The position numbers and the translations under genes were made by a program. A stretch of 32,094 nt of DNA, from assembly GCA_012798895.1 (NCBI GenBank), contig JAAZMI010000098.1:1-32094 (forward strand). The letters run 5' to 3'. Source of the DNA: Bacillota bacterium (lineage in GTDB: Bacteria > Bacillota > Dethiobacteria > DTU022 > UBA8154). Under the pieces are notes generated by a model. It did not search any database. It saw only the letters and a list, made by a program, of their open reading frames with translations, and was not told the DNA's origin. The number at the start of each line of letters is the position of its first letter. Within the stretch, counting starts at the first letter, position 1. Below, piece by piece: positions 6,368 through 30,775 of the stretch.

Positions 6368-8257
6368 TCAGTACACTTTTTCCTGAACCTGGCAAAACCG
6401 ATAGGCTTCATCGGCAATTTTTTCTGCCGAAAGTCCATGCCTTTCTAACAAAAAATCTCTTTTACCCTGGCCGGTATATGGGCTAATGAAGCCCAGTCGT
6501 TTCAGATGCACTCCCTGGATACCTTCATCAGCCAACATCTCCAGGATTGCACTGCCAAAACCTCCGCCTAAAATATGTTCTTCCACGGTGATTACCCGAC
6601 CACATTTTTCCGCCCAGCAGCAGATCATCTCCTTATCCAGCGGCTGAACAAAACGAGGGTTAATCACGCTGCTTTCAATCTTCATTTTTAAAAGAATCTC
6701 GTGTGCTTTAAGAGCCGGCACAACCATAGAGCCGACAGCCAGTATGAGCAGATCCCGGCCTTTTGTTAAAAGTTGTGCCTTGCCCGGTTTCAGTTTGCTG
6801 GTTTCTTCAGTCAAAAATCTATCTGCCGGGCCGCGTGGGTACCTAATCGCTGCCGGGCACTTCATCTCCAAAGCCATCTTAAGCATTGCCTTCAGCTCCC
6901 GGCCATCTGCCGGGGCCATGAGGGTAAGGTTGGGTAGATTCCGCAGATAGGCCAGATCATAGAGGCCGTTATGCGTCTCCCCATCCTCGCCCACCAAACC
7001 CGCCCGATCTACGGCAAAAACAACCGGCAATTTCTGTAGGCAGACATCGTGTAAAAGTTGGTCGTAAGCCCTCTGTAAAAAAGTACTGTAGATAGCTGCA
7101 ACAGGTTTAAAACCCTCAACAGCCAGCCCTGCGGCCATGGTTACAGCATGTTGTTCGGCAATGCCCACATCGAAAAAACGTTCCGGCCAGCGCCGTGCAA
7201 AGTTTTCTAAACCGGTTCCTACAGCCATCGCTGCTGTAATAGCCACGATAGAAGGATCCTCTTCAGCATATTCTTCCAGGGCGGAGCCAAAAACCCCGCT
7301 ATAGGTTGGCCGATCCTTGCTCCCGGAGAGAGGTTCGCCCGTTTTTTTATCAAAGGGGCCTACACCGTGAAAAGTACAAGGCTTTTTTTCTGCAGGAGGG
7401 TAACCTTTACCTTTTTTGGTTACGACGTGCAGCAAAACAGGGCCGCGCACGCTTTTTACCTCGCGAAAAAGAGCAACCAATTTAGGTATGGAATGGCCGT
7501 CTACCGGCCCCAGATATGTAAAACCCAGTTCTTCAAAAAGCATCCCGGAAACAAGCAGATATTTTAAACTGTCTTTGATACGTTCCGCTGAACGAAGCAT
7601 CGTCTTACCGATAGCCGGTATGCGTTCGAGAACATACTCCAGATCTTCTTTTAGGCGGTAATATGTGGGATCCGTGCGTAGTTTTGCTAAATAGGAGGGC
7701 AAACCACCAATGTTATGGCCGATCGACATCTCGTTATCGTTTAAGATAACGAGCAGATCTGTCTTGATCTCCCCGGCATAGTTTAGCGCCTCCAAGGCAA
7801 TACCACCGGTAAGAGCGCCATCGCCGATCACATCGACTACATAAAAATTTTCTTTCCGCAGATCCCGGCCCTGGGCGATACCCAAAGCAGCCGAAAGAGA
7901 GGTACTGCTGTGCCCTACGCCAAATACATCATAAAGGCTTTCCTCTCTTTTGGGAAAGCCGCTCAAACCTTTGTAATCGCGAATCTGTTTAAAATTTTCC
8001 CGGCGTCCAGTGAGAATTTTGTGAGCATAACACTGGTGCCCGACATCCCAAAGAATCTTATCGAAAGGAGCGTTAAAGACATAATGGAGGGCGATGGTCA
8101 TCTCTACAACCCCCAAGCTGGGGGCAAGATGCCCGCCTTTTCGGGAGGTTACATCGATTATCAGTTCCCTAATCTCACTGGCTAATTGATTCAGCTCTTT
8201 TAGTGAGAGTTTTTTTAAATCAGCAGGGCTGTCAATCCTATTAAGAACAACACTCAA
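6368..8257 (-). CDS. dxs: 1-deoxy-D-xylulose-5-phosphate synthase
   Basis: 629 aa; GHQCYAHKILTGR, GDGALTGG, DRAGLVGEDGETHNG, GIAEQHAVTMAAG motifs. Confidence 0.97.
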   Translation of the reverse strand: MSVVLNRIDSPADLKKLSLKELNQLASEIRELIIDVTSRKGGHLAPSLGVVEMTIALHYVFNAPFDKILWDVGHQCYAHKILTGRRENFKQIRDYKGLSGFPKREESLYDVFGVGHSSTSLSAALGIAQGRDLRKENFYVVDVIGDGALTGGIALEALNYAGEIKTDLLVILNDNEMSIGHNIGGLPSYLAKLRTDPTYYRLKEDLEYVLERIPAIGKTMLRSAERIKDSLKYLLVSGMLFEELGFTYLGPVDGHSIPKLVALFREVKSVRGPVLLHVVTKKGKGYPPAEKKPCTFHGVGPFDKKTGEPLSGSKDRPTYSGVFGSALEEYAEEDPSIVAITAAMAVGTGLENFARRWPERFFDVGIAEQHAVTMAAGLAVEGFKPVAAIYSTFLQRAYDQLLHDVCLQKLPVVFAVDRAGLVGEDGETHNGLYDLAYLRNLPNLTLMAPADGRELKAMLKMALEMKCPAAIRYPRGPADRFLTEETSKLKPGKAQLLTKGRDLLILAVGSMVVPALKAHEILLKMKIESSVINPRFVQPLDKEMICCWAEKCGRVITVEEHILGGGFGSAILEMLADEGIQGVHLKRLGFISPYTGQGKRDFLLERHGLSAEKIADEAYRFCQVQEKVY

Positions 8258-8289: not shown

Positions 8290-8919
8290 CTATGAATTCC
8301 TCTTCCAGGAAAATATCCGTTCAAAAGTCGTTAAAAAACGGGCCGCAAACAGCACTAGATCGGTGGGCCTATTAATTGCCAGGGATTTGCCGATAGCTTT
8401 GCCGCCCACCGTTAAGGCAGAGACGGTTCCAGCTAAAAAAATGCTTAAAAGTATCTCATTAAGCTCGGCATTTCTCTGGACCAGGTTGACTACGATTATT
8501 GTTCCAACTACCCCGCTCACAATGCCGCTTATATCCCCGATGACATCGTTACAAAAATTTGCCACCAGATCGGCATGGCGCACCAGGTATATACCCTTTT
8601 TGGCCCCATAAATTTTTTTAGCCGCCTTGGCATGAAAGGGCGTCTCTTCGGCCGCGGCAGCTGCCGTGCCAATCAGGTCAAAAAAAATGCCCAGCGAAAT
8701 AATCAAAAACAAAAGAATAAAGGAGGGTAGAATTGAACGTAGGTTTTGCAACAAAGCACGCGTTACCCAGGTTAGGGTTATTGCTAAAAAAAAAGTCCAA
8801 AAACTGACAAATATTACCCAACGCTTGGTTTTTTTACTTCTTGGTTGTCGCCTCTGCCTTTTTTTGTTTTCCCCCAAGATCTTTTGCACTCGCCAAATAA
8901 TATTTTGTTGATAGGACAT
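8290..8919 (-). CDS. oapA: OLE-associated protein OapA (membrane protein)
   Basis: 209 aa with several hydrophobic segments and a basic N-terminus (KKRQRRQPRSKKTKR). Contains LGIFFDLIGTAAAAAEETPFHAKAAKKIYGAKKG. Lies directly downstream of the ispA-proximal structured non-coding region and upstream of dxs. Confidence 0.87.
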   Translation of the reverse strand: MSYQQNIIWRVQKILGENKKRQRRQPRSKKTKRWVIFVSFWTFFLAITLTWVTRALLQNLRSILPSFILLFLIISLGIFFDLIGTAAAAAEETPFHAKAAKKIYGAKKGIYLVRHADLVANFCNDVIGDISGIVSGVVGTIIVVNLVQRNAELNEILLSIFLAGTVSALTVGGKAIGKSLAINRPTDLVLFAARFLTTFERIFSWKRNS

Positions 8920-8929
8920 AGTGTGGTAG

Positions 8930-9518
8930 CTTTATGAGTAAACTTTGCGGCTTGAGGTCCAGCAGGTTTTCCCAGATGTTCACCGCTTGTCACCAAACGG
9001 CAGTTTCCTTTTCAGAACACCTCTGCTGTGTTGCCACTAACAGGGCTGGATTACCACTTAGACCACACTTTAATCCCCATAAAGCCTCCCCATCCGGCTT
9101 CCCGGCAGGGAACAGCCTAGGAGTTTTCCTCGATGCCCCGGATACGCTTCCTATCCTTTTTTGCAGCCTTGGTTTCCTAAGGATTCAACCTTCCTCCCCC
9201 AAGGCCACTCAAGGCCGGCTACACTGTGCACAGCTTTGACCGCACACAGGTTCTGGCCTAAGCCGTAACCTTTTACCCTTACGGTAATACGCCACGCACT
9301 TAGGTCTCCGCGAGGGCAGGGTCAACGCCTACATGCCTTTGTAGATCGCCCCATCCCCCTTAACTCCCAGCACCAACTCCCGACTGGGCTTCGGCAGCCG
9401 GCACCAGGAACTTCATCGCTGTGCCTAAAGCAGGCTTCCCACCCGCTTTCGGAAACGCTGGTGACAACTAGAATACTGCACCACGCTATGCCCGAACAAA
9501 TTAAATTAATTCTAGCTA
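8930..9518 (-). ncRNA. ole: OLE RNA (Ornate Large Extremophilic RNA)
   Basis: About 590-nt GC-rich intergenic region between ispA and oapA/dxs with no credible ORF. Many hairpins, e.g. CCTAAG..CCGTAA-loop-TTACGG.CTTAGG (9257-9304) and GCCTTGG..CCAAGGC (9166-9205). Size and synteny match the published ole locus. Ends are estimates: 5' from the promoter, 3' from oapA. Confidence 0.88.
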
Positions 9519-9524
9519 ATTAAT

Positions 9525-9553
9525 ATTATACTCGAATTTATGGCCTATTTCAA
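9525..9553 (-). promoter_or_regulatory. Sigma-A promoter for the OLE RNA
   Basis: Minus strand TTGAAA (9553-9548), 17 nt, TATAAT (9530-9525), in the ispA-OLE gap. Confidence 0.8.
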
Positions 9554-9598
9554 ATAAAAATAGCGATCCCCTTCGTTTTTGAGACAAGCTGCCGCCGG

Positions 9599-10516
9599 TC
9601 AATGATCACGGTAGAAGGCCAGGCGAGTAATTTCGCGCAAGGGTTGGGCCCCCCCGCCAAAATGGTACAACTCCCCTATAGCCTGCGCATATAACTGATC
9701 CCTTTTCTTTTTGGCAGCCTCTAGACCATGCAAAGATACGAGGTTGGCTTTTTTTCTCTCCACATCTTTCCCTTTGGCTTTCCCCATTTTTTGTTCATCG
9801 CCATCCAGATCCAGAATATCATCCACGATCTGGAAGGCCCTTCCCAGCAGTTTCCCATAGGCAGTTAATTTGTCCAGCTCCCCAGGCCCGGCCCCGGCCA
9901 CAAGGGCTCCCAAACGCACGGAAGCCAAAAGCAACTCCCCTGTTTTATGGGTATCGATATATTCCAAGGTTTCCGCATTGACCGCTTTTCCCTCCGAAGC
10001 CAGATCCATCGCCTGCCCCCCAACCATCCCTTCCACCCCTGCAGCACGTGCCAGCTCGCAGATTGCTGCCAGTTTAACCTCAGCCGGAACATTTTTCCTG
10101 TAGGAACTGCAAAATTTATTCTTCCGTTCCGGGTTGCCGGCCAATATTTCAAAGGCAAGGGTCAATAGTGCATCCCCGGTCAATATGGCGACAGCCTCCC
10201 CAAAAACCTTATGCGAAGTAGGGCATCCCCTTCTGTAGTCATCATCATCCATCGCCGGCAGATCGTCATGGATCAGAGAATAGGTATGGATAAGCTCCAA
10301 AGCACAAGCCGCCGGCAGGGCCCTTTGCCAATCTGTAGTGAAAAGTTCCGCCGAAAACAGAACCAATAGCGGCCTGAGACGCTTGCCCCCGGCAAAAACG
10401 CTATAGCGCATAGCCCGGTAAAGCCCTGCGGGGTGCAGCTCTTCATCGGGTAGGAAGCAATCAAGCGTGCTTTCTATTAAGGTTTTTCTGGTTTCCATCA
10501 GTTGTTCAAAATTCAT
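9599..10516 (-). CDS. ispA: Farnesyl/geranylgeranyl diphosphate synthase
   Basis: GGKRLRPLL, LIHDDLPAMDDDDYRRG, FQIVDDILDLDGD motifs. Confidence 0.95.
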   Translation of the reverse strand: MNFEQLMETRKTLIESTLDCFLPDEELHPAGLYRAMRYSVFAGGKRLRPLLVLFSAELFTTDWQRALPAACALELIHTYSLIHDDLPAMDDDDYRRGCPTSHKVFGEAVAILTGDALLTLAFEILAGNPERKNKFCSSYRKNVPAEVKLAAICELARAAGVEGMVGGQAMDLASEGKAVNAETLEYIDTHKTGELLLASVRLGALVAGAGPGELDKLTAYGKLLGRAFQIVDDILDLDGDEQKMGKAKGKDVERKKANLVSLHGLEAAKKKRDQLYAQAIGELYHFGGGAQPLREITRLAFYRDH

Positions 10517-10807: not shown

Positions 10808-12030
10808 CTATCTAGCATTTTTTTTCTCACTATCTTTTGCACCCGACAAGCAGCTTTCCCGTCATGGAAGATAACATGAATACCCTGTCCCTCCTGCAAA
10901 ACATCAATACTATTGAGCGGTAGGTTCTGCCGATCGGTAATCAGGGCAAACCCCCGCTCCATGATCTGCAAGGGGTTTAAAGCCTTTAATTTTTCTTCAA
11001 TATGTAGAAGTGCAGTTCTTTTAAATCTTAAATTATAGAGCATGTTCTGTCTCAGGCGTTGACCTAGCTCATCGATGCGCTGGTATCCCTGGTTAATTTT
11101 TTCTCGGGGATATTTTAATGAGACTGCGTTGGAGAGATTCTCAAGTACGATCTTCTTTTCCCGCTTAAAGTTATGCCACTTGTTAATTAAGCGGTGCTCT
11201 TGCATATTGAGATGCCGTACAAGTTCTTTTTGTTCTGGGGCAATCAATTCTGCAGCAGCCGTGGGTGTCGAAGCTCTTACATCGGCAACAAAATCGGCAA
11301 TTGTAAAATCTGTTTCGTGCCCTACCGCACTAATTACAGGAGTATCCAGCCCAGATATAACATGGGCCAACTCCTCATTATTAAAAGGCCATAGCTCTTC
11401 AAGGGACCCACCACCCCTGGTGAGCACCAGGACATCGATCTTTTCCAAACTGTCCAGGTTTCTAAGAGCAGTAATTATCTGCCCGACAGCCTCCGCCCCC
11501 TGGACGGCCACAGGGCAAAACAAAACACGTATATAGGGAAATCTTCTTTTCAAAGTCGTCAAAAAATCCTGAACTGCCGCCCCCGTCGGAGAGGTAACCA
11601 ATCCCACACAACGCGGTATATAGGGCAGAGATTTTTTCCTTTCAACATCGAAGAGCCCTTCATTTTTAAGTTTATCTTTCAACTGTTCGAAGGCAAGGTA
11701 TAGGGCACCGATTCCTTCCGGTTTCAGGTCTTCCACGTATAGTTGGTAATTACCGCTCCGGGCATAGAGCGAGATATTGCCGCGAGCAACGACCTTCATC
11801 CCATCTGCCGGCGCAAACTGCAGATTTTTGTTTCTGCTAAGGAAAAAAACACAGCGGATAATACTTTCGTTATCTTTTAAAGTAAAATAAATGTGTCCCG
11901 AGGGTTTATGCAGTTTGTAATTGGAAATTTCGCCGAGGACGGAGATCGCCTGGAGCAAGCTGTCCTGCAAAAGAAGGCTTTTTAGATACGAATTCACTTG
12001 AGAAACCGTGAAAATTCCTTGCCTCTTCAT
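10804..12030 (-). CDS. xseA: Exodeoxyribonuclease VII large subunit
   Basis: LGEISNYKLHKPSGHIYFTLKD, VLTRGGGSLEELWPFN, SAVGHETDFTIADFVADVRASTPTAAAEL. Confidence 0.96.
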   Translation of the reverse strand: MKRQGIFTVSQVNSYLKSLLLQDSLLQAISVLGEISNYKLHKPSGHIYFTLKDNESIIRCVFFLSRNKNLQFAPADGMKVVARGNISLYARSGNYQLYVEDLKPEGIGALYLAFEQLKDKLKNEGLFDVERKKSLPYIPRCVGLVTSPTGAAVQDFLTTLKRRFPYIRVLFCPVAVQGAEAVGQIITALRNLDSLEKIDVLVLTRGGGSLEELWPFNNEELAHVISGLDTPVISAVGHETDFTIADFVADVRASTPTAAAELIAPEQKELVRHLNMQEHRLINKWHNFKREKKIVLENLSNAVSLKYPREKINQGYQRIDELGQRLRQNMLYNLRFKRTALLHIEEKLKALNPLQIMERGFALITDRQNLPLNSIDVLQEGQGIHVIFHDGKAACRVQKIVRKKMLDS

Positions 12031-12866
12031 TGAACTTTTACCGCCTCCAGAAGATTTTCGAACAACATGGTAATTGTCATCGGGCCGACGCCGCCCGGTA
12101 CCGGCGTTATCCAGCCTGCCGTTTTCTTCACATCCCAGTAATCTACATCCCCAACCAAGCGCGTGCCGGCAAAATTAACGCCAACATCGATCACGATCGC
12201 CCCTGTTTTAACCATCTTCTGCGTGATCAAACGTGGCTTGCCGGCGGCAACAACGAGCAGATCCGCCTTCTTAGTAAAAGCAGCCAGATCCGGCGTCTGG
12301 GAATGACAGATGCTTACGGCAATCCCTCTTTCCAAGAGCAGAAGGGCGACCGGTTTGCCTACTAACCGGCTGCGTCCCACTACCACCGCTCTCTTCCCCG
12401 CCAAGCTTTCCCCGGTGGCTGTGATCAACCTCATAATGCCTTTGGCTACATAAGGGATCAGCTTATATTCTCCTCTAAAAAAATTGCCCATATTCAGGAA
12501 ATGTAGAACTTCGATATCTTTGTGTGGTGCCACTAACTGAGAGAATAGCATGTGGTCAAAAGAAGGCGGCAGCGGATGAATGTTAACCCCGTGTATCTTA
12601 GGGTCAGCATTCAGCTGGATTAACAACTGCTCAAGTTCAGCTTTGGTGGTATCTTCCGCAAGATAGTGGACCCGGCAATAAATTCCAAGCTGCCGGCAGG
12701 CCCGTTCTTTCAGGCGAGCAACATGGATGCGGGCTACCGGGCTTTTGAGCACCACAATAGCCAGGCCGGGGGTTATCCCTTCACTTTTTAAGAAAGCAGC
12801 AGTCGATTTTAGCTGTTCCCGTACTTCCCTGGCAATTTGTTCCCCGTTGATCACTTTAGCAGCCAA
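12027..12866 (-). CDS. FolD-like protein, divergent paralog (folD3)
   Basis: FolD fold (VVVGRSRLVGKPVALLLLERG, TPVPGGVGPMTITML). Catalytic regions altered: GVNIHPLPP instead of GILVQLPLP, KDIEVLHF instead of KDVDGFHP. ATGA overlap with xseA. Confidence 0.85.
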   Translation of the reverse strand: MAAKVINGEQIAREVREQLKSTAAFLKSEGITPGLAIVVLKSPVARIHVARLKERACRQLGIYCRVHYLAEDTTKAELEQLLIQLNADPKIHGVNIHPLPPSFDHMLFSQLVAPHKDIEVLHFLNMGNFFRGEYKLIPYVAKGIMRLITATGESLAGKRAVVVGRSRLVGKPVALLLLERGIAVSICHSQTPDLAAFTKKADLLVVAAGKPRLITQKMVKTGAIVIDVGVNFAGTRLVGDVDYWDVKKTAGWITPVPGGVGPMTITMLFENLLEAVKVQ

Positions 12867-12967: not shown

Positions 12968-13822
12968 TTAAACCGTTTTGCTTAGGAATGTTTTCAGCGT
13001 GTTTTTCATCACCATGGTTAGCACGAGTGTTCCTGCTTCTCTTGCCGCCAGGGGGAAAACCCATTCTGCAACCTGCAAGGCTTCCTCCAACACAACATCG
13101 CCCACCAAGGCTCCATCTTGCTTCCGGGTTACGCCGGCGTCGATTACCGCCGCCCCGGGCTTTATCCAGCCACCCTTGATCAACCTCGGCCTACCTATCT
13201 CTGTAATAAGAATATCCGCGCTGCGGCAGATCTCCGGCAGATCAGCGGTTAGAGCAGGGCACATAGTGATCGTAGCGTTTTTTTGCAACAGTAAGAGAGC
13301 AAGTGGTCTGCTCACAATGTTGCTGTGCCCGAGCAGCACCACCGTTTTGCCGTGAAGCGGCTGCTTGGTAAATTCAAGCGCCTGCAGGCAAGCAAGAGCA
13401 CTACAGGGTATAAAGCTTGCGCCCCCACCCCAAAGCATCCCCATGTTCAGCGGGTGCATGCCCCCCACATCTTTAGCGGGATCAATCGCTTTTAAAACAT
13501 CTTCCGCCAGATGGAGAGGCAAAGGGAACCGGCAGAACAGACCATGGATCTTTTCATCATCGTTTAAACGCCGGATCACTCTGCGAATCTTCCCTGCGGA
13601 GGTAGCCGGAGACAGACGGTGCACCTCGATGTGATAACCCAGTTTTTTGCCCAATTCCTCTTCCCCGTAAACAGCAGAAGGAGAGGTGGGGTCTTCGTCA
13701 ACAGCGATCACAGCCAAACCGGGAACCTGTTCTGTTTTTTTATGCAGGCTCTTCAATTTTGCCAGGATTTCGCGTTGAACCTCGCCCCCCACCTCTTCTT
13801 CACCAAGCAATTTTTCAGGCAT
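12968..13822 (-). CDS. FolD-like protein, probable non-catalytic paralog (folD2)
   Basis: FolD-like architecture (VVLLGHSNIVSRPLALLLL) but active-site regions replaced (PSAVYGEEEL, GLFCRFPLP, KDVGGMHP) and the canonical TPVPGGVGPMT replaced by VFPLAAREAGTLVLT. Confidence 0.85.
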   Translation of the reverse strand: MPEKLLGEEEVGGEVQREILAKLKSLHKKTEQVPGLAVIAVDEDPTSPSAVYGEEELGKKLGYHIEVHRLSPATSAGKIRRVIRRLNDDEKIHGLFCRFPLPLHLAEDVLKAIDPAKDVGGMHPLNMGMLWGGGASFIPCSALACLQALEFTKQPLHGKTVVLLGHSNIVSRPLALLLLQKNATITMCPALTADLPEICRSADILITEIGRPRLIKGGWIKPGAAVIDAGVTRKQDGALVGDVVLEEALQVAEWVFPLAAREAGTLVLTMVMKNTLKTFLSKTV

Positions 13823-13838
13823 GGATTAATGCCCTAAG

Positions 13839-14720
13839 TTACTGGTTAAGCGTAATTGCTGCTTCAACAGTATTGTAAAGGAGCATGGTCACTGTCATAG
13901 GGCCTACGCCACCGGGAACCGGGGTAATAAATGAAGCTTTTTCGGCAACAGGTTCAAAATCTACGTCGCCCGCCAGACGGAAGCCACTCTTTTTGGATTC
14001 ATCGGGAATCCTGTTTACGCCAACGTCGATCACAACTGTGCCTTCTTTTACCATATCGGCGGTGATAGCCTGGGGCCTACCCATTGCTGCAATAAGGATA
14101 TCAGCTTGCTTTGTAAAGTAAGAGATATCCTTGGCACCTGTATGCACCACCGTCACTACAGCGTTGGCCCCTTCTTTCTTCTGCATCAAGATCGCAGCCA
14201 GTGGCTTGCCGACAATGTTGCTGCGGCCACAGACCACAACGTGTTTCCCTGAAGGATCGTTACCGGAACGGGATAAGAGCTGCTGGACGCCATGAGGGGT
14301 GCAAGGCAGCGGGCAGGGTTCGCCCCGCAGCAGTTTGCCTACGTTTACAGGGTGAAACCCGTCGACATCTTTTTCCGGAGAAATGTAACCGATAATCTTA
14401 TCCACGCTGATGTGATCCGGTAAGGGAAGCTGCACCAGAATACCGCTAAATTTCGGGTCATTGTTCATGCCATCGATGATCTTGAGCACCTCTTCCTCCG
14501 GCGCATCAGCCGGAAGACGGATCGTCTCTTCATACATCCCGATCTCCTGGCAACCCTTGGCCTTACTGGTTACATAAGAGATAGAAGCGGGATCTTCCCC
14601 CACCAGCACAACACCGAGGCCGGGCACGATATCTTTCTTTTTTAACTCCGCAACCTTCTCCTTAAGCTCAGCACGGATCTCCTTCGCCACATCTCTACCG
14701 GAAATAATCTTTGCTGCCAT
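13839..14720 (-). CDS. folD: Methylenetetrahydrofolate dehydrogenase/cyclohydrolase FolD (canonical)
   Basis: YVTSKAKGCQEIGM, GILVQLPLPDHI, KDVDGFHPVNVG, VVCGRSNIVGKPLA, TPVPGGVGPMTVTML all intact. Confidence 0.96.
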   Translation of the reverse strand: MAAKIISGRDVAKEIRAELKEKVAELKKKDIVPGLGVVLVGEDPASISYVTSKAKGCQEIGMYEETIRLPADAPEEEVLKIIDGMNNDPKFSGILVQLPLPDHISVDKIIGYISPEKDVDGFHPVNVGKLLRGEPCPLPCTPHGVQQLLSRSGNDPSGKHVVVCGRSNIVGKPLAAILMQKKEGANAVVTVVHTGAKDISYFTKQADILIAAMGRPQAITADMVKEGTVVIDVGVNRIPDESKKSGFRLAGDVDFEPVAEKASFITPVPGGVGPMTVTMLLYNTVEAAITLNQ

Positions 14721-14813: not shown

Positions 14814-16235
14814 TTATAGAGCTTTCAGGTATTTATCCATCGCCCGTGCGGCCACTTTGCCGGCACCCATGGCCAAGATAACTGTAGCTGCACCCGTAAC
14901 AATATCCCCACCGGCAAAAACTCCCGGACGGGAGGTAGCCCCTTCTTCATCCGCTTCGATCGTTCCCCAACGTCCGATTTTCAAACCGGAAGTGGTCTGC
15001 GGAATAAGCGGGTTGGGATTTTGACCAATAGCAATGACAATGGTATCCACATCAAAAACAAATTCTGAACCCTCGATGGGAATAGGACGTGCCCGGCCGG
15101 AATCGTCCGGTTCACCCAACTCCATCTTGATGCATTCCATCCCTGTAACCCAGCCATTTTCATCCCCTATGATGCGAACGGGGTTGGTCAATAAATTAAA
15201 GACAACGCCCTCCTCCTTGGCGTGTTCGATCTCTTCAGCACGGGCCGGCATCTCCTTATCCGAACGGCGGTAGACGATGTGGACCTCTTCGGCACCCAGA
15301 CGAAGCGAAGTACGGGCGCTGTCCATGGCCACGTTACCCGCACCGACTACAGCAACTTTTTTGCCCAACTTGATCGGTGTATCATATTCAGGAAACAGAT
15401 AGGCTTTCATCAGGTTGGCTCTCGTTAAAAATTCGTTCGCAGAGAAAACACCGTTCAGGTTTTCTCCCGGGATATTGAGAAACTGGGGCAACCCTGCTCC
15501 TGTACCGATAAAGACAGCCTGAAAACCCTCTTCCTCAAAAAGCTCGTCAACAGTCAGAGTTTTTCCAATGACGACATTCGTTTTAATTTCAACGCCCAGG
15601 CTGGCAATGTAATCCACTTCGCGCTGCAAAACTTTTTCTTTGGGCAGACGGAATTCCGGGATCCCATAGCGGAGGACCCCCCCTGTAGCGTGGAAAGCTT
15701 CAAAAAGAACTACTTCATGCCCCATCTTGGCCAGATCACCGGCTGCTGTCAACCCAGCTGGCCCCGCACCAACGATGGCCACGCGTTTTCCGGTCGAAGC
15801 CGGTTTGGGAGGTGTCTCCACTCCTTTGGCCAGCTCATAATCCGCGAGAAAACGTTCCAACCTCCCGATAGCCACAGGTTCCGCTTTTTTGCCACGCAGG
15901 CAGAGGGCCTCGCATTGGCTTTCTTGGGGACAAACACGCCCGCAAACCGCCGGCAGGCTGTTTTTTTCCTTCAGCTTTTTAATACCTTCGTCGAACTTGC
16001 CTTCGGCAACCAACTTGATAAAAGCTGGTATGTCCACCTCCACCGGGCAGCCTTCGACGCACTTGGCATCTTTACACTGCAGGCAGCGGTTGGCTTCTTT
16101 GATCGCCGTTTCAGCATCATAACCGAAAGGTACTTCATTGTAATTTTTGATGCGCTCCTCCGGTGCTTGTTCCGGCATCGGATGCTTTTCCTTCATTCTA
16201 CGCAGTTGTCTGATCTGGTCTTTATCCAATTTCAC
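14814..16235 (-). CDS. nfnB: NADPH-dependent glutamate synthase small chain-like / NfnB (transhydrogenase large subunit)
   Basis: CLQCKDAKCVEGCPVEVDIPAFI, GAGPAGLTAAGDLAKMGHEVVLFEA, AGGDIVTGAATVILAMGAG. GTG start chosen with GGAGGTGGCAATA upstream; ORF track extends to 16313. Confidence 0.88.
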   Translation of the reverse strand: MKLDKDQIRQLRRMKEKHPMPEQAPEERIKNYNEVPFGYDAETAIKEANRCLQCKDAKCVEGCPVEVDIPAFIKLVAEGKFDEGIKKLKEKNSLPAVCGRVCPQESQCEALCLRGKKAEPVAIGRLERFLADYELAKGVETPPKPASTGKRVAIVGAGPAGLTAAGDLAKMGHEVVLFEAFHATGGVLRYGIPEFRLPKEKVLQREVDYIASLGVEIKTNVVIGKTLTVDELFEEEGFQAVFIGTGAGLPQFLNIPGENLNGVFSANEFLTRANLMKAYLFPEYDTPIKLGKKVAVVGAGNVAMDSARTSLRLGAEEVHIVYRRSDKEMPARAEEIEHAKEEGVVFNLLTNPVRIIGDENGWVTGMECIKMELGEPDDSGRARPIPIEGSEFVFDVDTIVIAIGQNPNPLIPQTTSGLKIGRWGTIEADEEGATSRPGVFAGGDIVTGAATVILAMGAGKVAARAMDKYLKAL

Positions 16236-17082
16236 TATTGCCACCTCCGCATCCGCATTCTTCTTTATATTTATCCAAGGCCTCTTTTTCTTCCGGCAGG
16301 TACATCTGCCCACGGCGGGTTAGCTCTTCAAAATCAACCTGGTGTGCATCAAATACAGGGCCGTCGACGCAGGTAAATTTTGTTTCCCCGCCGACGGACA
16401 CACGGCAACACCCGCACATCCCGGTCCCATCGACCATGATGGGGTTTAAACTAACCACCGTCTTAATTCCGTAGGGTTTTGTCTGGTTGGCGACAACGCG
16501 CATCATGGGCAGCGGCCCGACTGCGATGATCTCATCAATTTTCTGGCTTTTATCGTCCAGCATCCCCTGCAGAATATCGGAAACAAAACCGTGATGTCCT
16601 TTTGTTCCGTCATCTGTGCAGATATGAAGCTCCTTGCTGACGGCCCTCATTTCATCTTCTAAGATAAGAAGATCGGCTGTCCGTGCTCCAATAATGGAGA
16701 TAACCTCCATGCCGGCCTGGTGGAAAGCTTTTACCTTTGGATAGATCGGAGCAATGCCCACCCCGCCGCCTACGGCAATGACCCGGCCCGAGGTCGGCAA
16801 CTCCATGGCCTGTCCCAGCGGCCCGACAAAATCTCTTAAACTGTCCCCCTCTTCAAGAGCACCCAATTCCTTCGTTGTCTTGCCAACCTCCTGGAAAATG
16901 ATGGTGATCGTCCCTTTTTCCTTATCGCTATCCGCAATAGTTAAAGGAATTCTCTCCCCGTTTTCGTGGATGCGCAAAATAATAAACTGCCCGGGTTGAG
17001 CCTTACGCGCAACAAGAGGCGCCTCCACCTCCATGAGTTTGGATACATCAGCCAAATCTCTTTTTTTGACTATTTTGAACAT
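16222..17082 (-). CDS. nfnA: Sulfide/dihydroorotate dehydrogenase-like FAD/NAD-binding protein, NfnA
   Basis: AQPGQFIILRIHENGERIPLTIAD FAD-binding; C-terminal iron-sulfur region GTGMCGCCRVSVGGETKFTCVDGPVFDAHQVDF. Confidence 0.88.
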   Translation of the reverse strand: MFKIVKKRDLADVSKLMEVEAPLVARKAQPGQFIILRIHENGERIPLTIADSDKEKGTITIIFQEVGKTTKELGALEEGDSLRDFVGPLGQAMELPTSGRVIAVGGGVGIAPIYPKVKAFHQAGMEVISIIGARTADLLILEDEMRAVSKELHICTDDGTKGHHGFVSDILQGMLDDKSQKIDEIIAVGPLPMMRVVANQTKPYGIKTVVSLNPIMVDGTGMCGCCRVSVGGETKFTCVDGPVFDAHQVDFEELTRRGQMYLPEEKEALDKYKEECGCGGGNSEIG

Positions 17083-19076: not shown

Positions 19077-19622
19077 TTAACTATGTTGAATTACGTGTAC
19101 CTCCTCTCTGGCCACCTCCAGTTTGGCGGCAACCATCTCTGCTACTCTTAAATAATCCTCTGCAGACATTTTTTCTGCCTCGATCATAATTGTAATGCCT
19201 CCACGGTTGGAAAACAAAAGGGCATCTGTGTATCCCTGTGCTTTAAGCATATTTTCTACGATCAGCTCTTTTTCCATTAGATCCACCAGTTGCAAAAGCT
19301 GTTGTTCCGCTTCTTGCCTTGCCTCCGATCCAACCCGGGGGTTATTGATCATTTCATTAAGCAGCTCTGTTTCCTGTCCCCGCACCCGATCCCTTTCCAG
19401 GCGATACTCCACAAAAAATGCTCCGGCATCATCAAGCTTCCACTGCGCCGGATCATCAGAAAGTTCCCCGGATATCAAGGGCTGAAACATCTCTTCGTCA
19501 GGCGTTATCTCAATCCTGCTCATCTCTTTCTCCACACCGTTTAAAAATAGATAGGCTATCGCCACGACAGACAACAAACTGATAATCCAGATCATTCTTT
19601 TATTCATTACCCTTTGGTTCAC
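19077..19622 (-). CDS. spoIIIAH: Stage III sporulation protein AH (SpoIIIAH)
   Basis: Single N-terminal TM, YRLERDRVRGQETELLNEMINNPRVGSEARQEAEQQLLQL...; last gene of the spoIIIA operon. Confidence 0.93.
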   Translation of the reverse strand: MNQRVMNKRMIWIISLLSVVAIAYLFLNGVEKEMSRIEITPDEEMFQPLISGELSDDPAQWKLDDAGAFFVEYRLERDRVRGQETELLNEMINNPRVGSEARQEAEQQLLQLVDLMEKELIVENMLKAQGYTDALLFSNRGGITIMIEAEKMSAEDYLRVAEMVAAKLEVAREEVHVIQHS

Positions 19623-19678
19623 CCCTTAAATTTTATAACTTAAATTAGATAACCGCTCTCCTGCAATCTGATCCATGT

Positions 19679-20314
19679 TTAGCTCTTTGGATTTCCACCA
19701 CGAGGCAGAACAGCGATGCGGTGCGCGGGCAGATCCAGGGCGCTCTGTATAGCGCGTACTATTTTTAAACGAAGGCCGCTATTTTCTGCCCCGCGCGCAA
19801 CCACCAATACCCCTGTAATCCGGGGCATGCTTTCGCTTAACAGCAGGGGCTTCTCCCCGCCTCCCGCCTCCCGTAGCAGAACATAACCCTCTTTGCAGTT
19901 TTTCTCGAGGATCTCCCGCTGACCCCCTTCCCGATCGCTTTCCACCGTTTGTTTGCTGCTTTCTTCATGGGTGAGACCAAAAGTTGATTCCTTGGTGCCG
20001 GCAAAATTAATGAAGACCTCCACCTGACTAATTCCATCTATATGCTCCAAAACCAGCTGCAATGATCGGCTTAATTCTTTTTCGTATGTATTAACGGCTA
20101 CAACTGGTTCCCTTTTATTTTCCCCAGTTTTCTGCTGTTCAACGGTAGGTATTTTTTTTAACGGTTTGATAAAAGAGCCAACCAGCATCAATATTATTCC
20201 CAGAAGAAGCAAAGCTAATAGAAGGTAGTTTTTCCTCTTACCGGTCGGGTTTTTGTTCTGTAAGAAAGTTTGAAGTAAAGCGTACCATGTTTTTTCTTGT
20301 TTTTGATCAGACAT
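19679..20314 (-). CDS. spoIIIAG: Stage III sporulation protein AG
   Basis: YEKELSRSLQLVLEHIDGISQVEVFINF, ITGVLVVARGAENSGLRLKIVRAIQSALDLPAHRIAVLP. ORF track start is 20329; ATG at 20314 follows GAGAGGTGG. Confidence 0.93.
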   Translation of the reverse strand: MSDQKQEKTWYALLQTFLQNKNPTGKRKNYLLLALLLLGIILMLVGSFIKPLKKIPTVEQQKTGENKREPVVAVNTYEKELSRSLQLVLEHIDGISQVEVFINFAGTKESTFGLTHEESSKQTVESDREGGQREILEKNCKEGYVLLREAGGGEKPLLLSESMPRITGVLVVARGAENSGLRLKIVRAIQSALDLPAHRIAVLPRGGNPKS

Positions 20315-20325
20315 TTTTCCACCTC

Positions 20326-21024
20326 TCAAGGCAAAATTTCAACCTCTACATCCCCGGAAGAAAGCCGGAAATAAGTTGCTAAATATTCTGCAATCTCCAC
20401 TGCCTTGTCCCTGCCGGAAACACCGGGGGTTAAATCTCCTACCGGGCCAGGCCCTTCCTCCCTATCTTCCGTTTCTTCTTCCCCTGCAGAACCCCCCAGA
20501 CCCGGGGAATCAACTTTTACAGAAACCCTGATCTCCTGAGCAGGGTCTGAGGATTCCTTTTCCAGACCGGAAACGGGTTCTTGTGCCCGGGTTGCCACGT
20601 AGATACTCTTAAGCATCCCAAACTCTCTGTTGTCCGGATCATCCTCTGTCTCCACCTGAAGACGGAGCAGTTTTTGATCGAATTCCCGGGCCAGTTCGAT
20701 CTCTAATAGATCAAAAATCTGGTTTTGGTAATCCTCCAGGGCGCTCCTCATTTTTTCCCTGTAAAGCTCCTCTCCAAGACCAAGGATCGCTTCCAATTCG
20801 CCGGCATTTTCATTGTCTTGGTTTTCTACCGAAGACGGTATCTCCCAATATGGTGCAATGCGCATAATTTTTTGCAGCGGTGTAAGCAGTGTAAAGATCA
20901 GCAGGATTCCGATCAGCATCCGCAGGTAACTGCGAAAAACCCCCCGGGGCAAGATCATCTCCAAAAGGGCGCTAATGAAAATGAGAATGACGAGATAACG
21001 AATGAGGTTGCTGATGGTTTCCAA
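20326..21024 (-). CDS. spoIIIAF: Stage III sporulation protein AF
   Basis: ETISNLIRYLVILIFISALLEMILPRGVFRSYLRMLIGILLIFTLLTPL. TTG start with GGAAGG upstream preferred over the extended start at 21069, whose first codons lie in an inverted-repeat element. Confidence 0.85.
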   Translation of the reverse strand: METISNLIRYLVILIFISALLEMILPRGVFRSYLRMLIGILLIFTLLTPLQKIMRIAPYWEIPSSVENQDNENAGELEAILGLGEELYREKMRSALEDYQNQIFDLLEIELAREFDQKLLRLQVETEDDPDNREFGMLKSIYVATRAQEPVSGLEKESSDPAQEIRVSVKVDSPGLGGSAGEEETEDREEGPGPVGDLTPGVSGRDKAVEIAEYLATYFRLSSGDVEVEILP

Positions 21025-21044
21025 TGTGTTACCGCCTTCCGGAG

Positions 21045-21250
21045 TGGTGAAGGATGTAGTGAGCTCCAAGTTCAGCTCAGAGAGTTCTACGGCTCAGCTA
21101 CGGCCTACGATGGCCTACCCGACCAAGCGGCCATCCATGGCCGCACGGTCGGCCACAGGCGTCCTGTCGGCAGGGTCATCTTAAAGCCTTAAGCTTCGCC
21201 GGGAACTCTTCGCTTCGCTTCACAAGTCACTACACTACATCCTTTCACCA
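21045..21250. repeat. Inverted-repeat-bounded (MITE-like) element between spoIIIAE and spoIIIAF
   Basis: TGGTGAAGGATGTAGTG (21045-21061) and CACTACATCCTTTCACCA (21233-21250) are inverted repeats differing by one inserted base. The interior has a 13-bp hairpin, CCGACC-aa-GCGGCCA-TCCA-TGGCCGC-ac-GGTCGG (21119-21152), and ACAGG-cgt-CCTGT (21155-21167). Confidence 0.7.
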
Positions 21251-21479
21251 CCATAATCAAATATAAAAATTAAAAGACAAGTGATAAAAACCACCACAAT
21301 CCAAAGTCCACATGGATAACCATAGATATCCTGCCAACAGGGCCATCTTCAGCCTATGCTACGTCCCATAGGTCGCTGTGCTATAGCTCTCACCACCAAA
21401 ACTGAGCAGAAAGATTAAAAACAAGTGATTAAGAGATCTAAAATCCAAGGCTGCATGGTTGGTTGTCTTAGCCCCTGTT
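21240..21479. repeat. Two degenerate direct copies of an AT-rich unit in the spoIIIAE-AF gap
   Basis: CACCACCATAATCAAATATAAAAATTAAAAGACAAGTGAT...AATCCAAAGTCCACATGGAT (from ~21246) versus CACCACCAAAACTGAGCAGAAAGATTAAAAACAAGTGAT...AATCCAAGGCTGCATGGTT (from ~21391). Confidence 0.6.
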
Positions 21480-22694
21480 TCAACGCAGCATAACTGTGGC
21501 GTTGCTGGCACCGATGAGCATGGCGATTCCAATAAAAAAAACAAGGGCTACGGTGGCTACTGCAGCAAAAATGAGCGTCAGGCTTTCGCTCATGGTCTGC
21601 AGGGTCTCGCCCAACGTGGTCTCTCCCAAAGGTTGGATGATCGCCCCGCAAAATTTATAGACAGCAACCAACGCCAGAATTTTAAGCAAAGGAAAGATGA
21701 CCATCAGGGCTAAAATGATCAGCCCGGCGATGGTTGCGCCATTTTTGATTAAGAGGGAATAGCTGACTACGGTCTCTACCGTATCGGTTAGGATGCCCCC
21801 CACCACCGGGATTATGGCACCCGTTAAAAATTTGGCTGTCCGCAAGGCTATGGCATCGCCAATTCCCCCGGCCACCCCCTGAATAGTCATTAATCCGATA
21901 AAAAGGGTTAACAGAAGCCCCAGTCCAAAGATGCTGCAATCCCGAAAAAAGTCGGCGAGACGATTGATCTTGAAGTGTGATGAAAGATGGTTTGCCAGAT
22001 ACAGAATGGTCGAGCAAAAAATCAAAGGAAAGATTACGTTGCTGACTAGAGATGCAATAAAATGAACAGCAAAAATAATAAAGGGATGGAAAAGAGTAAC
22101 CAGGGTAATATGGCCCAGTGAAGCCAGCAGGGTAAATAAAACAGGCAGAAGGGCCAGCATAAAATCCACCATGCTTCCCACCGTGCTTCTTCCCGTCTCC
22201 ACAACGAGGGTAAAACTTTTTAAAGCCAACCCCAGCAATACAAAGAAAGCAACGGCTTCTGTCAACCGGGCCACCTCTTCCTGGCTAAAAGCCCCCTGCA
22301 GGCTTTTCAATAGGGCAGCGGCTACTGCCAGAAAGAGAAGTTGCCCCAACAGCCCCAGATTATCGACCACCTCGGCCAAAAGGTAGCGCCCCAGTCCCCT
22401 GCAAAACTCCTTATAGGGGATAGTCCCGCTCCCCTCTCCTTCCCAGATCTCCCCAATCTGCCAAGCGGGCAAAAATTCATCCATCTCCTCTTGCAATTCA
22501 GACCAGTATTTTTCCACTCCCTCCCATTCCTGTGGCATCGAAATATTTTCGCTTTCGCCTTCGTTTCCGCCGGTGGCGCAGGGGATACCCAATCTTTTTT
22601 CCCGGGCCTGTATCTCCCCGGGGTATGTCCAAATAAAAAGCGCAATGCATAAAATCAGGAATACTCGTTTCAGGGGATGCCTCGAAAAAGTCAT
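21480..22694 (-). CDS. spoIIIAE: Stage III sporulation protein AE
   Basis: 404 aa polytopic membrane protein with SpoIIIAE features (VGSMVDFMLALLPVLFTLLASLG, TGAIIPVVGGILTDTVETV). Confidence 0.95.
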   Translation of the reverse strand: MTFSRHPLKRVFLILCIALFIWTYPGEIQAREKRLGIPCATGGNEGESENISMPQEWEGVEKYWSELQEEMDEFLPAWQIGEIWEGEGSGTIPYKEFCRGLGRYLLAEVVDNLGLLGQLLFLAVAAALLKSLQGAFSQEEVARLTEAVAFFVLLGLALKSFTLVVETGRSTVGSMVDFMLALLPVLFTLLASLGHITLVTLFHPFIIFAVHFIASLVSNVIFPLIFCSTILYLANHLSSHFKINRLADFFRDCSIFGLGLLLTLFIGLMTIQGVAGGIGDAIALRTAKFLTGAIIPVVGGILTDTVETVVSYSLLIKNGATIAGLIILALMVIFPLLKILALVAVYKFCGAIIQPLGETTLGETLQTMSESLTLIFAAVATVALVFFIGIAMLIGASNATVMLR

Positions 22695-22722
22695 TTTGCC
22701 GTATGCTGCCTCCGCCTTAAAT

Positions 22723-23109
22723 TTAGGGTATAAAATTAATGATGCCCTCCAAAACCGCCACCAAAACCGGCACAGCCATAATTAAAATCAGTATTTTCCC
22801 CGCAAATTCGATCTTCACGGCAATGCTTCCTTCCCCCGCATCCCGGCAGACCTGTGCACCGAATTCCGCCAGATAAGCTATACCGATTACGCGTAGCAGG
22901 ATCCTTAAAAAAACGGTATCGATCTCGGCCTCCAACGCTAGATCGGTAATAATATCAACAACCATTGTCAGATAATTAAGCACGTAGATTACGATGATCA
23001 ACCCTACTCCAATAGATAGCAACCGGGCCAGATCGGGCCGGTTTTGACGAATAAAAAGGATCAGGATGGTGGCCACAACTCCAAAAGCCATTACCTGGGC
23101 AATCTCCAC
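22723..23109 (-). CDS. spoIIIAD: Stage III sporulation protein AD
   Basis: IRQNRPDLARLLSIGVGLIIVIYVL, IAYLAEFGAQVCRDAGEGSIAVKIEFAGKILIL. Confidence 0.95.
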   Translation of the reverse strand: MEIAQVMAFGVVATILILFIRQNRPDLARLLSIGVGLIIVIYVLNYLTMVVDIITDLALEAEIDTVFLRILLRVIGIAYLAEFGAQVCRDAGEGSIAVKIEFAGKILILIMAVPVLVAVLEGIINFIP

Positions 23110-23136
23110 TGCATAACACCACTTTTGCTTAATAAA

Positions 23137-23340
23137 CTATAAATTGAAAAGGTCACGGATGCTGTTGAAAAGTTCCCCCAGCAGTTGCAAAACCAGCAAT
23201 AGAACGATCACCACGCCTACCAGGGTCAACATCTGGGCCTGTTCTTCTTTGCCTGCCTCTTTTAAAACAATATTTAATACAGAGATAAAAATACCGATTC
23301 CGGCGATCTGAAAAAGGAGATCGACCCTTAAAATATGCAT
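23137..23340 (-). CDS. spoIIIAC: Stage III sporulation protein AC
   Basis: 67 aa; VDLLFQIAGIGIFISVLNIVLKEAGKEEQAQMLTLVGVVIVLLL. Confidence 0.96.
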   Translation of the reverse strand: MHILRVDLLFQIAGIGIFISVLNIVLKEAGKEEQAQMLTLVGVVIVLLLVLQLLGELFNSIRDLFNL

Positions 23341-23401
23341 CTTTAAACTCCTCTCCCCATATCCGGCCCCGTTAGTTTAAAACCTAAAACAGTACGATCT
23401 C

Positions 23402-23923
23402 TTATAATAGAAAAATAACGAGGGTTGTACCGCCAAGCAGCCCTAAATACTTCCACATTTTATCATTCTTTTGCAGTTCTTCCCGGGCCTCACGTAGGGC
23501 CTGTCTTAGTAATTCTTGGATCAGGGCCGTCTGCCGCAGCTGATCGTTTTTATCGCCTTTCCCCCAGGCCAGTCCCAATCTCTCCAATAATTTCATCTCA
23601 CGGGCTGAAAATGCCAGCGCTCCAGAGCTGTCTTCCCAGGCATTTTGCCAGCACCGGCGGGCACTTAATCCCCTGCTTTTCTGCATCTCTCTTGCTGCGC
23701 CCAAAAAGATGGCCCCTACCGGTTCCCTCAGCTTTGCCCCGATATTCATAAAAGCAAGGGGCAAAGGGGTTAAGCCATAATTTATCTCTGTATGGAACAT
23801 CTCCAACCCCAGCAAAAGTTCTTCCAACTGGCCGACGCGATTCCGGTAGAAAGATGATATACTGTTCCCGTAGAAATAAGTAGAAGCAATGATCAGTGCC
23901 GCCCCGAAATATTTAAGGAGCAT
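23402..23923 (-). CDS. spoIIIAB: Stage III sporulation protein AB
   Basis: MLLKYFGAALIIASTYFYGNSISSFYRNRVGQLEELLLGLEMFHTEINYGLTPLP. Start adjusted from 23983. Confidence 0.95.
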   Translation of the reverse strand: MLLKYFGAALIIASTYFYGNSISSFYRNRVGQLEELLLGLEMFHTEINYGLTPLPLAFMNIGAKLREPVGAIFLGAAREMQKSRGLSARRCWQNAWEDSSGALAFSAREMKLLERLGLAWGKGDKNDQLRQTALIQELLRQALREAREELQKNDKMWKYLGLLGGTTLVIFLL

Positions 23924-24947
23924 CTTTCTGCCCTCCCCCCCCATAACGGGCCGAATACAGAGGCAGCCCCTTTTCCCCCTCAACGATCATCTCCAGCGTT
24001 CCCGGTCCCCGTTTACTGCTTAAGAAGATCAAACGTTCAAAGATATTTTTCTCCAACAGCTCTCCCAAAACCGGGCGCCGGAGAATCTCTTCCAGGGTAG
24101 AACCATGCGCAGATGTAATTAGCGAGATACCGGCGGAGACAGCTTCGGCAATAGCCTGTACATCTTCAACCCTACCCAGCTCGTCAGTAACGATCACTTG
24201 CGGTGAAAGGGAGCGCAACATGAGCATGATGCCCTCTGCTTTGGGGCAGGCATCCAGCACATCCGTTCTCGTACCGATATCTAACTGGGGAATCCCCCGA
24301 AAACAGCCGGCAATCTCCGAACGCTCGTCGACGATGCCCACCTTTTTCCCGGCCTGCCCCAAAATTCCGTCGCCCTCACTAATCAGCCGGGCCAGATCCC
24401 GCAGCAACGTCGTCTTTCCGGCTTGTGGAGGAGAAACGATCAAAGTATGGTAGACGCGGCTGTTATCCCGGTCGAAAAGAAAACCCAACACTTTTTCCCC
24501 TGCCCCTTTAATCTGGCGTGCTACTCGAAAATTCAGTGAGCTGATATCCCGCAATACTTTCACCCTGCCTTTTTCCAGAACCGCTCTCCCGGCCAGTCCA
24601 ACCCGGTGCCCGCCGGGAAGGGTCAGAAAACCCTGTTTCAGCTCCTCTTCAAAAGCATAGAGGGAGTAATTGCTAATTAATTCCAAAGTCTTTTCCAGGT
24701 CTTCGCTTAATACCCGGTAGGCCCCTTTGGCCGTAAGAGTGGGGCCCCTTTCTCCCAGAAAGGATTCCCCGCCCTCCGCCCAACCGATAATCAGGGGGCG
24801 GGAATGCCTTAACCGTATCTCTTCTGTTTTGTTTAAAAGTTCTGGCGATAATTTTTCAATTATGGCCCGGATTCTCGGCGCTAAAAAGGGGCAGATCTGT
24901 TCTTTGATGCTGATATTAACTTTAACCATCCATAAAACACCTTCCAT
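23913..24947 (-). CDS. spoIIIAA: Stage III sporulation protein AA (ATPase)
   Basis: VSPPQAGKTTLLRDLARLIS Walker A, VGIVDERSEIAGC, VIVTDELGRVEDVQAI. Confidence 0.96.
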   Translation of the reverse strand: MEGVLWMVKVNISIKEQICPFLAPRIRAIIEKLSPELLNKTEEIRLRHSRPLIIGWAEGGESFLGERGPTLTAKGAYRVLSEDLEKTLELISNYSLYAFEEELKQGFLTLPGGHRVGLAGRAVLEKGRVKVLRDISSLNFRVARQIKGAGEKVLGFLFDRDNSRVYHTLIVSPPQAGKTTLLRDLARLISEGDGILGQAGKKVGIVDERSEIAGCFRGIPQLDIGTRTDVLDACPKAEGIMLMLRSLSPQVIVTDELGRVEDVQAIAEAVSAGISLITSAHGSTLEEILRRPVLGELLEKNIFERLIFLSSKRGPGTLEMIVEGEKGLPLYSARYGGGGQKDAP

Positions 24948-27695: not shown

Positions 27696-28217
27696 CTACC
27701 AGTGTTGCGGGGGCTCCTTAGAAATCCTGACCCGCCCCGTTACCGGAGTTACAATAACGTAGAGTCTGTCCCCCTTCTTTGTTTTAAGGGTTACCGTGCC
27801 GCCGCCACTGGGGTGCCCCAGTGTGTTAAAGTGTACATTAGGGGGGTCTCCCTTAAAAGACGGAACAGATCCGAAATCCACCCCCTCCGGCAGATAGACA
27901 TTACGCTTTTCCCCCGGCAGACGCAGTTCATAGTAGTGCGAATACCTATAGAATTCTATCCTGCAAAATTCCCCGCCGGTGATCGCAGCCTGACGGATCA
28001 GTCGCAGATCGTCCGCCAAACCACGGGCCGCCGTCTCCAATTTAAGGCGATCATGCACCTGAATGTTGGGCCAGAGCACTGCGGCGCAGAGAGAGACAAT
28101 AGCCAAGGCCGCCAGCAGTTCGAGCAGCGTAAATCCTTTTTGGTTCCAATTATGTCCACTATGTCCACTACCTGTCCACAATTTTCTGGGCAAATTATTC
28201 CGCCTTTCCAATCTCAA
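27696..28217 (-). CDS. GspH/FimT-like minor pseudopilin
   Basis: Prepilin-like NQKGFTLLELLAALAIVSLCAAVLWPN with the type III signal-peptide pattern (G|FTLLE). Confidence 0.82.
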   Translation of the reverse strand: MRLERRNNLPRKLWTGSGHSGHNWNQKGFTLLELLAALAIVSLCAAVLWPNIQVHDRLKLETAARGLADDLRLIRQAAITGGEFCRIEFYRYSHYYELRLPGEKRNVYLPEGVDFGSVPSFKGDPPNVHFNTLGHPSGGGTVTLKTKKGDRLYVIVTPVTGRVRISKEPPQHW

Positions 28218-28356
28218 TACTACTTAGGATGCAACCCCGAAAATGCCGGCCTGACCCCGGGGCCGAAAATTGCATCTTCAACATAGCCCAACCGACAACA
28301 GCTTGAATCAGGGCTGCCGGGTAAAATTCCCCTTCGACAGCATGGCCAAAGCTGTA

Positions 28357-28977
28357 TTACTGGCCGCTGAGGTAGAGCAGGGTTATGCTCGTTTTCCCTG
28401 TACCACTTTCATCTTCTACATTGGTTTCATCACCTGTATCGCCTTCTTCCACACCGCCTCCATCCTCGCTATCGTCATTATTTCCTGCACCGTTTTCATT
28501 CTCTACACCATCTTCGTCCCCCGTGTTATCTTCTTCTTCCACCCGGTCTACCTTCATCAAAGCCTTAATTTCAGCACGGGCACTCCTGTTTTCAAAAGTA
28601 GAGCGTGTATAACCGGTTGCTGTAAGGGTATAGAACTCTTCCGGGCCTGTCTGGTCGGCCGATTTCCGCCATTCCAGTTCAAAATATTCCCCATTCTGCC
28701 CGGAAGCGCCGCCATTGTACATATAAACCGGGTTCTCAAAGCCGTGTTCCAAAAAATAATCCGGTTGATCCCGGAGAACGGTTAGAGCAGCTTCCATGCC
28801 CGCTTCTGCAATATAATGTGCTCTTATTTTCTGCGTGTAGTTCCTGGCGATAAGTTTTTCCTGCAGCGAGCTGCGCAGAAAAGCAGTCCCCAGCAACAAT
28901 AGCGCGGCAGCAGATAAGATGACCAAGAATAAGATCGATCCTCTCTCTTCTTCCAAAGGCTTTTTAAGCATCGGCAA
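28357..28977 (-). CDS. PilX-like minor pilin/pseudopilin with acidic low-complexity C-terminus
   Basis: EEERGSILFLVILSAAALLLLGTAFLRSS, IRAHYIAEAGMEAAL (PilX_N-like), then VEEEDNTGDEDGVENENGAGNNDDSEDGGGVEEGDTGDETNVEDESGTG. Confidence 0.7.
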   Translation of the reverse strand: MPMLKKPLEEERGSILFLVILSAAALLLLGTAFLRSSLQEKLIARNYTQKIRAHYIAEAGMEAALTVLRDQPDYFLEHGFENPVYMYNGGASGQNGEYFELEWRKSADQTGPEEFYTLTATGYTRSTFENRSARAEIKALMKVDRVEEEDNTGDEDGVENENGAGNNDDSEDGGGVEEGDTGDETNVEDESGTGKTSITLLYLSGQ

Positions 28978-29001
28978 ACCGCCCCTCCTTTTTCCCTGCG
29001 G

Positions 29002-29646: not shown

Positions 29647-29652
29647 CTTATT

Positions 29653-30141: not shown

Positions 30142-30177
30142 ACCAGTTCCGCTCTTGTTAAACAGGCTGTCCCCCTC

Positions 30178-30630: not shown

Positions 30631-30775
30631 TTTGGCAAACCTCCCTTAGCGGTTTGTGGTATTGCGCTGTTGATCTGTAAAGTCTGTAAAGCAGAGCGGT
30701 TCATCTCCGGCCAAACCGGCCGGCCAAAAGCTGCCGCTGGTGGCCACCCCGCGCCCGGTAAAAATATCTGCTTTG

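Follow-up and report, generated by a model that had tools for sequence, protein, structure and literature searches.

Locus and question

The window analysed here, 32,094 nt of contig JAAZMI010000098.1 (assembly GCA_012798895.1, a Bacillota bacterium), contains a gap between ispA and a gene for a CNNM-like membrane protein, and the question is what occupies this gap. A sequence-only reading had proposed an OLE RNA and the gene of its partner OapA within an ispA–dxs operon. Few structured bacterial RNAs whose biochemical function is not known are as large as OLE, and a dimer built from RNA only was reported for it no earlier than 2025. On sequence comparison, the gap is an OLE RNA on the minus strand. 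The stretch very probably represents a complete OLE ribonucleoprotein locus, including the mechanism proposed below and an RNA dimer that would be built differently in this lineage. The departures at two RNA-dimer contacts go beyond the earlier reading.

The OLE RNA

8907–9500, minus strand: OLE RNA (RF01071), full model length
8923–9484, minus strand: RNA enclosed by the putative P1 closing arms, from sequence
9329–9344, minus strand: apical hairpin of P6, loop AAAGGCA, intact partner in bridge B2, from sequence
9257–9304, minus strand: P7 hairpin, from sequence, placed in P7 by the RF01071 alignment
9166–9205, minus strand: shortened P9, loop UUGAAU, without P9.3 arm or palindromic kissing loop, from sequence comparison

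The covariance model for OLE (Rfam RF01071) aligns end to end (positions 1–616 of 616) with the minus strand at 8907–9500 and scores 431.4 bits (E 1.2e-123) against a curated gathering score of 50 bits. This bears out the expectation of OLE in the gap at 8900–9600, and OLE was the sole match when all of Rfam was scanned across the window. The only open reading frame of at least 80 aa inside the gap, 101 aa on the plus strand, lies opposite the fully matched RNA, and a protein-coding gap was rejected. The source genome has one copy of OLE. A search of 14 control genomes with RF01071 gave no match; 57 of 71 genomes from the order of the source genome gave OLE, as did 217 of the 300 in a phylum-wide sample. 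The copy in the window has the lowest full-length score within the order. It keeps 203 of the 213 columns that are at least 93% conserved among 102 OLE RNAs, and 168 of the 172 near-invariant columns (at least 97% conserved).

The three hairpins noticed earlier are all present and belong to named parts of OLE. CCTAAG (9304–9299) pairs with CTTAGG (9262–9257), and CCGTAA (9284–9279) with TTACGG (9268–9263), in P7; GCCTTGG (9205–9199) and CCAAGGC (9172–9166) form P9; CTACA-AAGGCA-TGTAG (9344–9329) is P6. The P1 arms GUGGU (9484–9480) and ACCAC (8927–8923) are conserved in relatives and would pair to close the RNA.

Operon, promoter and the start of oapA

9599–10516, minus strand: ispA (polyprenyl synthetase), upstream neighbour (PF00348, 4e-57)
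9525–9553, minus strand: OLE's own promoter, TTGAAA - 17 nt - TATAAT (11 of 12 consensus letters)
8290–8877, minus strand: oapA, 195 aa from the probable start TTG 8877, reading frame open to ATG 8919 (family alignment A1, CNNM fold, start codon)
6368–8257, minus strand: dxs, downstream neighbour (PF13292, 1e-119)

The gene order read on the minus strand agrees with the operon context that had been claimed: nusB, a GltA/SudA-type pair, three folD-like genes, xseA, an xseB-sized open reading frame and ispA come before OLE, and oapA, dxs, tlyA, NAD kinase, recN, spoIVB and spo0A follow it. The OLE gene adjoins oapA in the ispA–dxs operon, as is the rule for the class.

Several neighbouring features, all on the minus strand, may be recorded here. 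The pair that follows nusB, ahead of the folD genes (14814–17082), is a GltA-type protein adjoining a sulfide/dihydroorotate dehydrogenase-type FAD protein, and is NfnAB/SudAB-like. The three folD-like genes are consecutive (12027–12866, 12968–13822 and 13839–14720), the middle one being the most divergent at 234 bits with a cut-off of 445. Upstream lie a spoIIIA sporulation operon and a type IV pilus/T2SS-like cluster (19077–24947 and 27696–31870). In many metagenome-derived genomes of the order, a contig stops within the 5′ half of OLE (L117, L120–L123, L162–L164, L172 and L173); the probable cause is disruption of assembly by the conserved OLE sequences of species living together.

Promoter and terminator pattern scans across the region gave counts not above chance, so the promoter call rests on conservation: most relatives have a −10/−35 pair at the same place just upstream of OLE, usually with TGn preceding TATAAT. 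A separate promoter likewise serves OLE in H. halodurans (PMC9723947). An extra AT-rich stretch of ~25 nt in the window (9500–9530, minus strand), which relatives do not have, parts the −10 box from the OLE 5′ end. The terminator scan found no intrinsic terminator at the OLE 3′ end in the window.

The membrane protein had been read as a 209-aa OapA; its identity stood, as set out below, and its start did not. In near relatives, OLE ends in ACCACC and is followed by a Shine–Dalgarno sequence, typically GAGGTG with a pairing energy of about −9.5 kcal/mol, and then by a TTG start that gives an OapA of roughly 188–203 aa. In the window, ATG 8919 comes 4 nt after the ACCAC that closes the RNA and lacks a Shine–Dalgarno sequence (−0.2 kcal/mol), and TTG 8877 stands at the start position of the relatives with a weak one (−4.6 kcal/mol). 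The gene probably starts at TTG 8877 (195 aa), not at ATG 8919 (209 aa). The Shine–Dalgarno sequence is weaker throughout this genus (GCGAGTG, GCGAGCG; window 8862–8895, minus strand) than the GAGGTG of relatives.

This weakness, with an RNA end at most 4 nt from the ATG and ~45 nt from the likely TTG, would fit a segment that is a mere leader of the oapA mRNA controlling its translation. Such a role is very improbable for an RNA of this size that has a promoter to itself and the complete structure of the family, and the OLE of H. halodurans exists in its own right as an abundant RNA of 630 nt, required alongside OapA (PMC9723947).

OapA and the other protein partners

The downstream protein is identified as OapA by family alignment, the fold of its model and invariant motifs. 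By profile, the open reading frame at 8290–8919 gives a sub-threshold CNNM match (PF01595). The protein is 75% identical to its same-genus homologue; it has 484 genomic relatives, and when the best 80 were searched with an OLE profile, nearly all had the RNA immediately upstream. It has the basic N-terminus, the all-helical CNNM-like membrane domain and the aspartates four apart that are features of OapA. The motif ND-V-I-GD is invariant or nearly so in an alignment of 40 OapA sequences, and the spacing of its aspartates suggests that they equal D100 and D104 of H. halodurans. A sequence search against the PDB gave no match, but a fold search with the AlphaFold2 model (pLDDT 86.8) did: the six best Foldseek matches are all CNNM/CorB/CorC membrane domains, MtCorB and CorC being the best, with probabilities of 0.99–1.00 but weak E-values (0.014 at best). 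For OapA of H. halodurans, a published comparison had likewise pointed to CorB (PMC11332333). The modelled membrane-domain fold is thus that of the CNNM–CorB–CorC proteins (PDB 7m1t, 7m1u, 7cff), whereas OapA would consist of this domain alone (195 aa), with its gene beside OLE.

OapB and OapC, which the earlier reading proposed to seek elsewhere in the genome, were both found. OapB, a KOW protein of 105 aa homologous to H. halodurans OapB, is encoded between map and infA and matches the OLE-associated protein B of PDB 7k9b (E 1.3e-9). It was located by context; a Pfam search of the genome for KOW missed it and gave two other KOW proteins only. OapC is a 93-aa YbxF homologue (YbxF/L7Ae-like) between rpoC and rpsL (YbxF 3v7e, E 5e-16). 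The genome also encodes bS21, a known OLE partner (PMC12054373). No CNNM protein besides OapA, and thus no MpfA, was found in the assembly, which is 87.5% complete so that absence is not proof; the lone CNNM match being OapA agrees with the reported anticorrelation of OLE and MpfA (PMC11332333).

Bridges B2 and B3

Cryo-EM has described three contacts between two OLE chains: bridge B1, four A–A pairs between the P4 loops; bridge B2, base pairing of L5 with L6 and stacking of L7; and bridge B3, a kissing loop of palindromic L9.3 (PMC12286853, PMC12191101). The B2 loops, L5 GCCCAG and L6 AAAGGCA, are unchanged in the window, the pairing itself being predicted.

The palindromic L9.3 of bridge B3 is absent from the window. 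Most Bacillota have a long P9 with a GGCC, GATC or AGCT loop (142 of 149 long forms). In the order of the source genome, all 40 RNAs parsed by script have a short P9 and no palindromic loop; by eye, three of the four unparsed RNAs also have a short P9, and family f2 retains TTGGCCAG. Among the 219 OLE RNAs, the P9.3 arm is absent from nearly all members of the order and is kept there only in f2. Outside the order, a short P9 is sporadic; counts there are approximate, as the script scored L018, L057, L147 and L204 as short, yet these carry GGCC.

A short P9 is shared with OLE variant 1 of the TANB77 clade, which tends to lose the OapB site (PMC11332333). The window differs from that variant in keeping the conserved letters of P13, OapB and OapC, and its score lies in the full-length range of the authors (at least 390, but scored with their own model). 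The B1 and B3 features are usual for OLE but not defining, and other accepted members do without them.

P4 and bridge B1

9427–9449, minus strand: P4 hairpin, AAAGCGGG-UGGGAAG-CCUGCUUU, its loop standing in for the B1-forming CUAAAAAU
9407–9420, minus strand: J4a/5, 5′ half of the OapC kink-turn (numbering from PMC9723947)

P4 was equated with the hairpin that comes first in the Rfam model, since this hairpin is placed before J4a/5 and has an A-rich loop. L4 was surveyed in the 219 distinct OLE RNAs from genomes, 210 of which have an intact, findable 5′ part. TAAAAA occurs in the P4 loop of 201 of these 210 (200 by script and L218 by eye), and clustering at 85% identity leaves 127 canonical groups among 133. 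Nine RNAs are altered: the window has UGGGAAG, its same-genus homologue GGGAAAAA and one member of the family UGAAAAU; four others have AAAGA, one AAAAC and one UAAAC. The A-rich L4 of bridge B1 is therefore missing from the window, which is unique in the survey in having just two adjacent A in the loop. The P4 stem is retained and is stronger than in canonical relatives (−14.4 kcal/mol versus −8 to −11), so it is the loop that has changed rather than the hairpin. An assembly error is unlikely, as an independently assembled contig of the same genus also has the GGG replacement.

The loop does not stand alone. Of the 10 departures from the 213 conserved columns, 8 fall within 31 nt, OLE positions 60–90, which hold 23 of these columns (hypergeometric P = 2e-7, a descriptive value since the segment was picked post hoc). 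This stretch comprises P4, its loop, the P4a side and J4a/5. A G stands at 9419, the position of H. halodurans U84, where 94% of relatives carry U; in kink-turn 1a, U84 is paired with G (PMC9723947). In P4a, two changes, A to U at 9427 and G to A at 9426, make A–U pairs of most of what is an internal loop (GAA/AAG) in relatives. Both alterations are located where OapA and OapC are expected to bind. Compared with OLE RF01071 of H. halodurans, C. acetobutylicum and C. botulinum, the window shares the full model match, the conserved cores, the position before oapA and the partners; it differs in the missing P9.3 palindromic arm, the replaced A-rich L4, the P4a internal loop and the U84 position.

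In a tree of OLE built without the P4 and P9 parts, the window and its same-genus homologue are joined with support of 98. The UGAAAAU member is near this pair but not its sister, and the L4 changes may thus have two origins. Taken as a whole, the order seems to manage without B3, and the genus of the window has changed B1 also. The window has a branch of 0.26, longer than its near kin (0.11 for the same-genus homologue), and this, with its lowest score in the order, is what would be seen if OLE were decaying in the lineage and the odd P4 region were plain loss of constraint. We regard decay as improbable: nearly all conserved columns are kept and the changes are clustered as described above, P4 pairing is retained, and OapA, OapB and OapC are intact.

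How the dimer might be built

The lineage of the window would appear to build its OLE dimer differently, without B3 and with B1 rewritten. More specifically, the chance that the dimer of the genus lacks the P9.3 kissing arch and has had its A–A helix of P4 loops lost or turned into G·A pairs is put slightly short of even.

Dimerisation may no longer be needed, B3 having been lost in the order and B1 having decayed in the genus, which would leave at most B2 and an OapA dimer. The absence of the P9.3 arm outside f2, the L4 replacements in window, genus and family and a P4 stem kept and stabilised under an altered loop speak for this possibility, which we nevertheless doubt. The B2 loops are unchanged. 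Most of the order combines an A-loop with the absence of the P9.3 arm, which makes it likely that dimers there normally lack B3.

B1 may instead have been rewritten, the GGGAA of two chains lying antiparallel and forming tandem G·A pairs in place of the four A–A pairs. Sheared A·A and sheared G·A pairs are alike in shape. As the published A–A pairs of B1 are described as sheared (PMC12265935), this likeness would let tandem G·A pairs replace them. The replacement letters are purines, GGGAAAAA of the same genus is capable of the same pairing, and the four AAAGA members also show A to G changes. In L234, a distant member with an altered loop, the run includes a pyrimidine, and the shortened loop of seven letters may not suit the geometry; a rewritten B1 is a minority expectation. 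On sequence, a weaker dimer, a G·A-paired dimer and an RNA held by an OapA dimer are each candidates.

Proposed function and significance

By analogy with H. halodurans, the particle may be pictured as follows. OLE RNA would be transcribed with the operon as well as from a separate promoter immediately upstream, and would fold into the family architecture. Two OapA molecules would anchor it at the membrane through the P2/P4a part; OapC would be bound to the kink-turn at P5, bS21 to P6 and OapB to P12.2/P13. The particle would then support growth under cold, alcohol, Mg2+ and carbon-source stress.

An order lacking one bridge, with a genus in which a second appears rewritten, while OapA, OapB, OapC and nearly all other conserved letters are kept, amounts to a natural test of dimerisation. 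These natural variants let the need for dimerisation in OLE function, and the contact on which it depends, be tested directly. If the proposed dimer is correct, OLE ribonucleoproteins would be able to work with a dimer that is minimal or made by protein.
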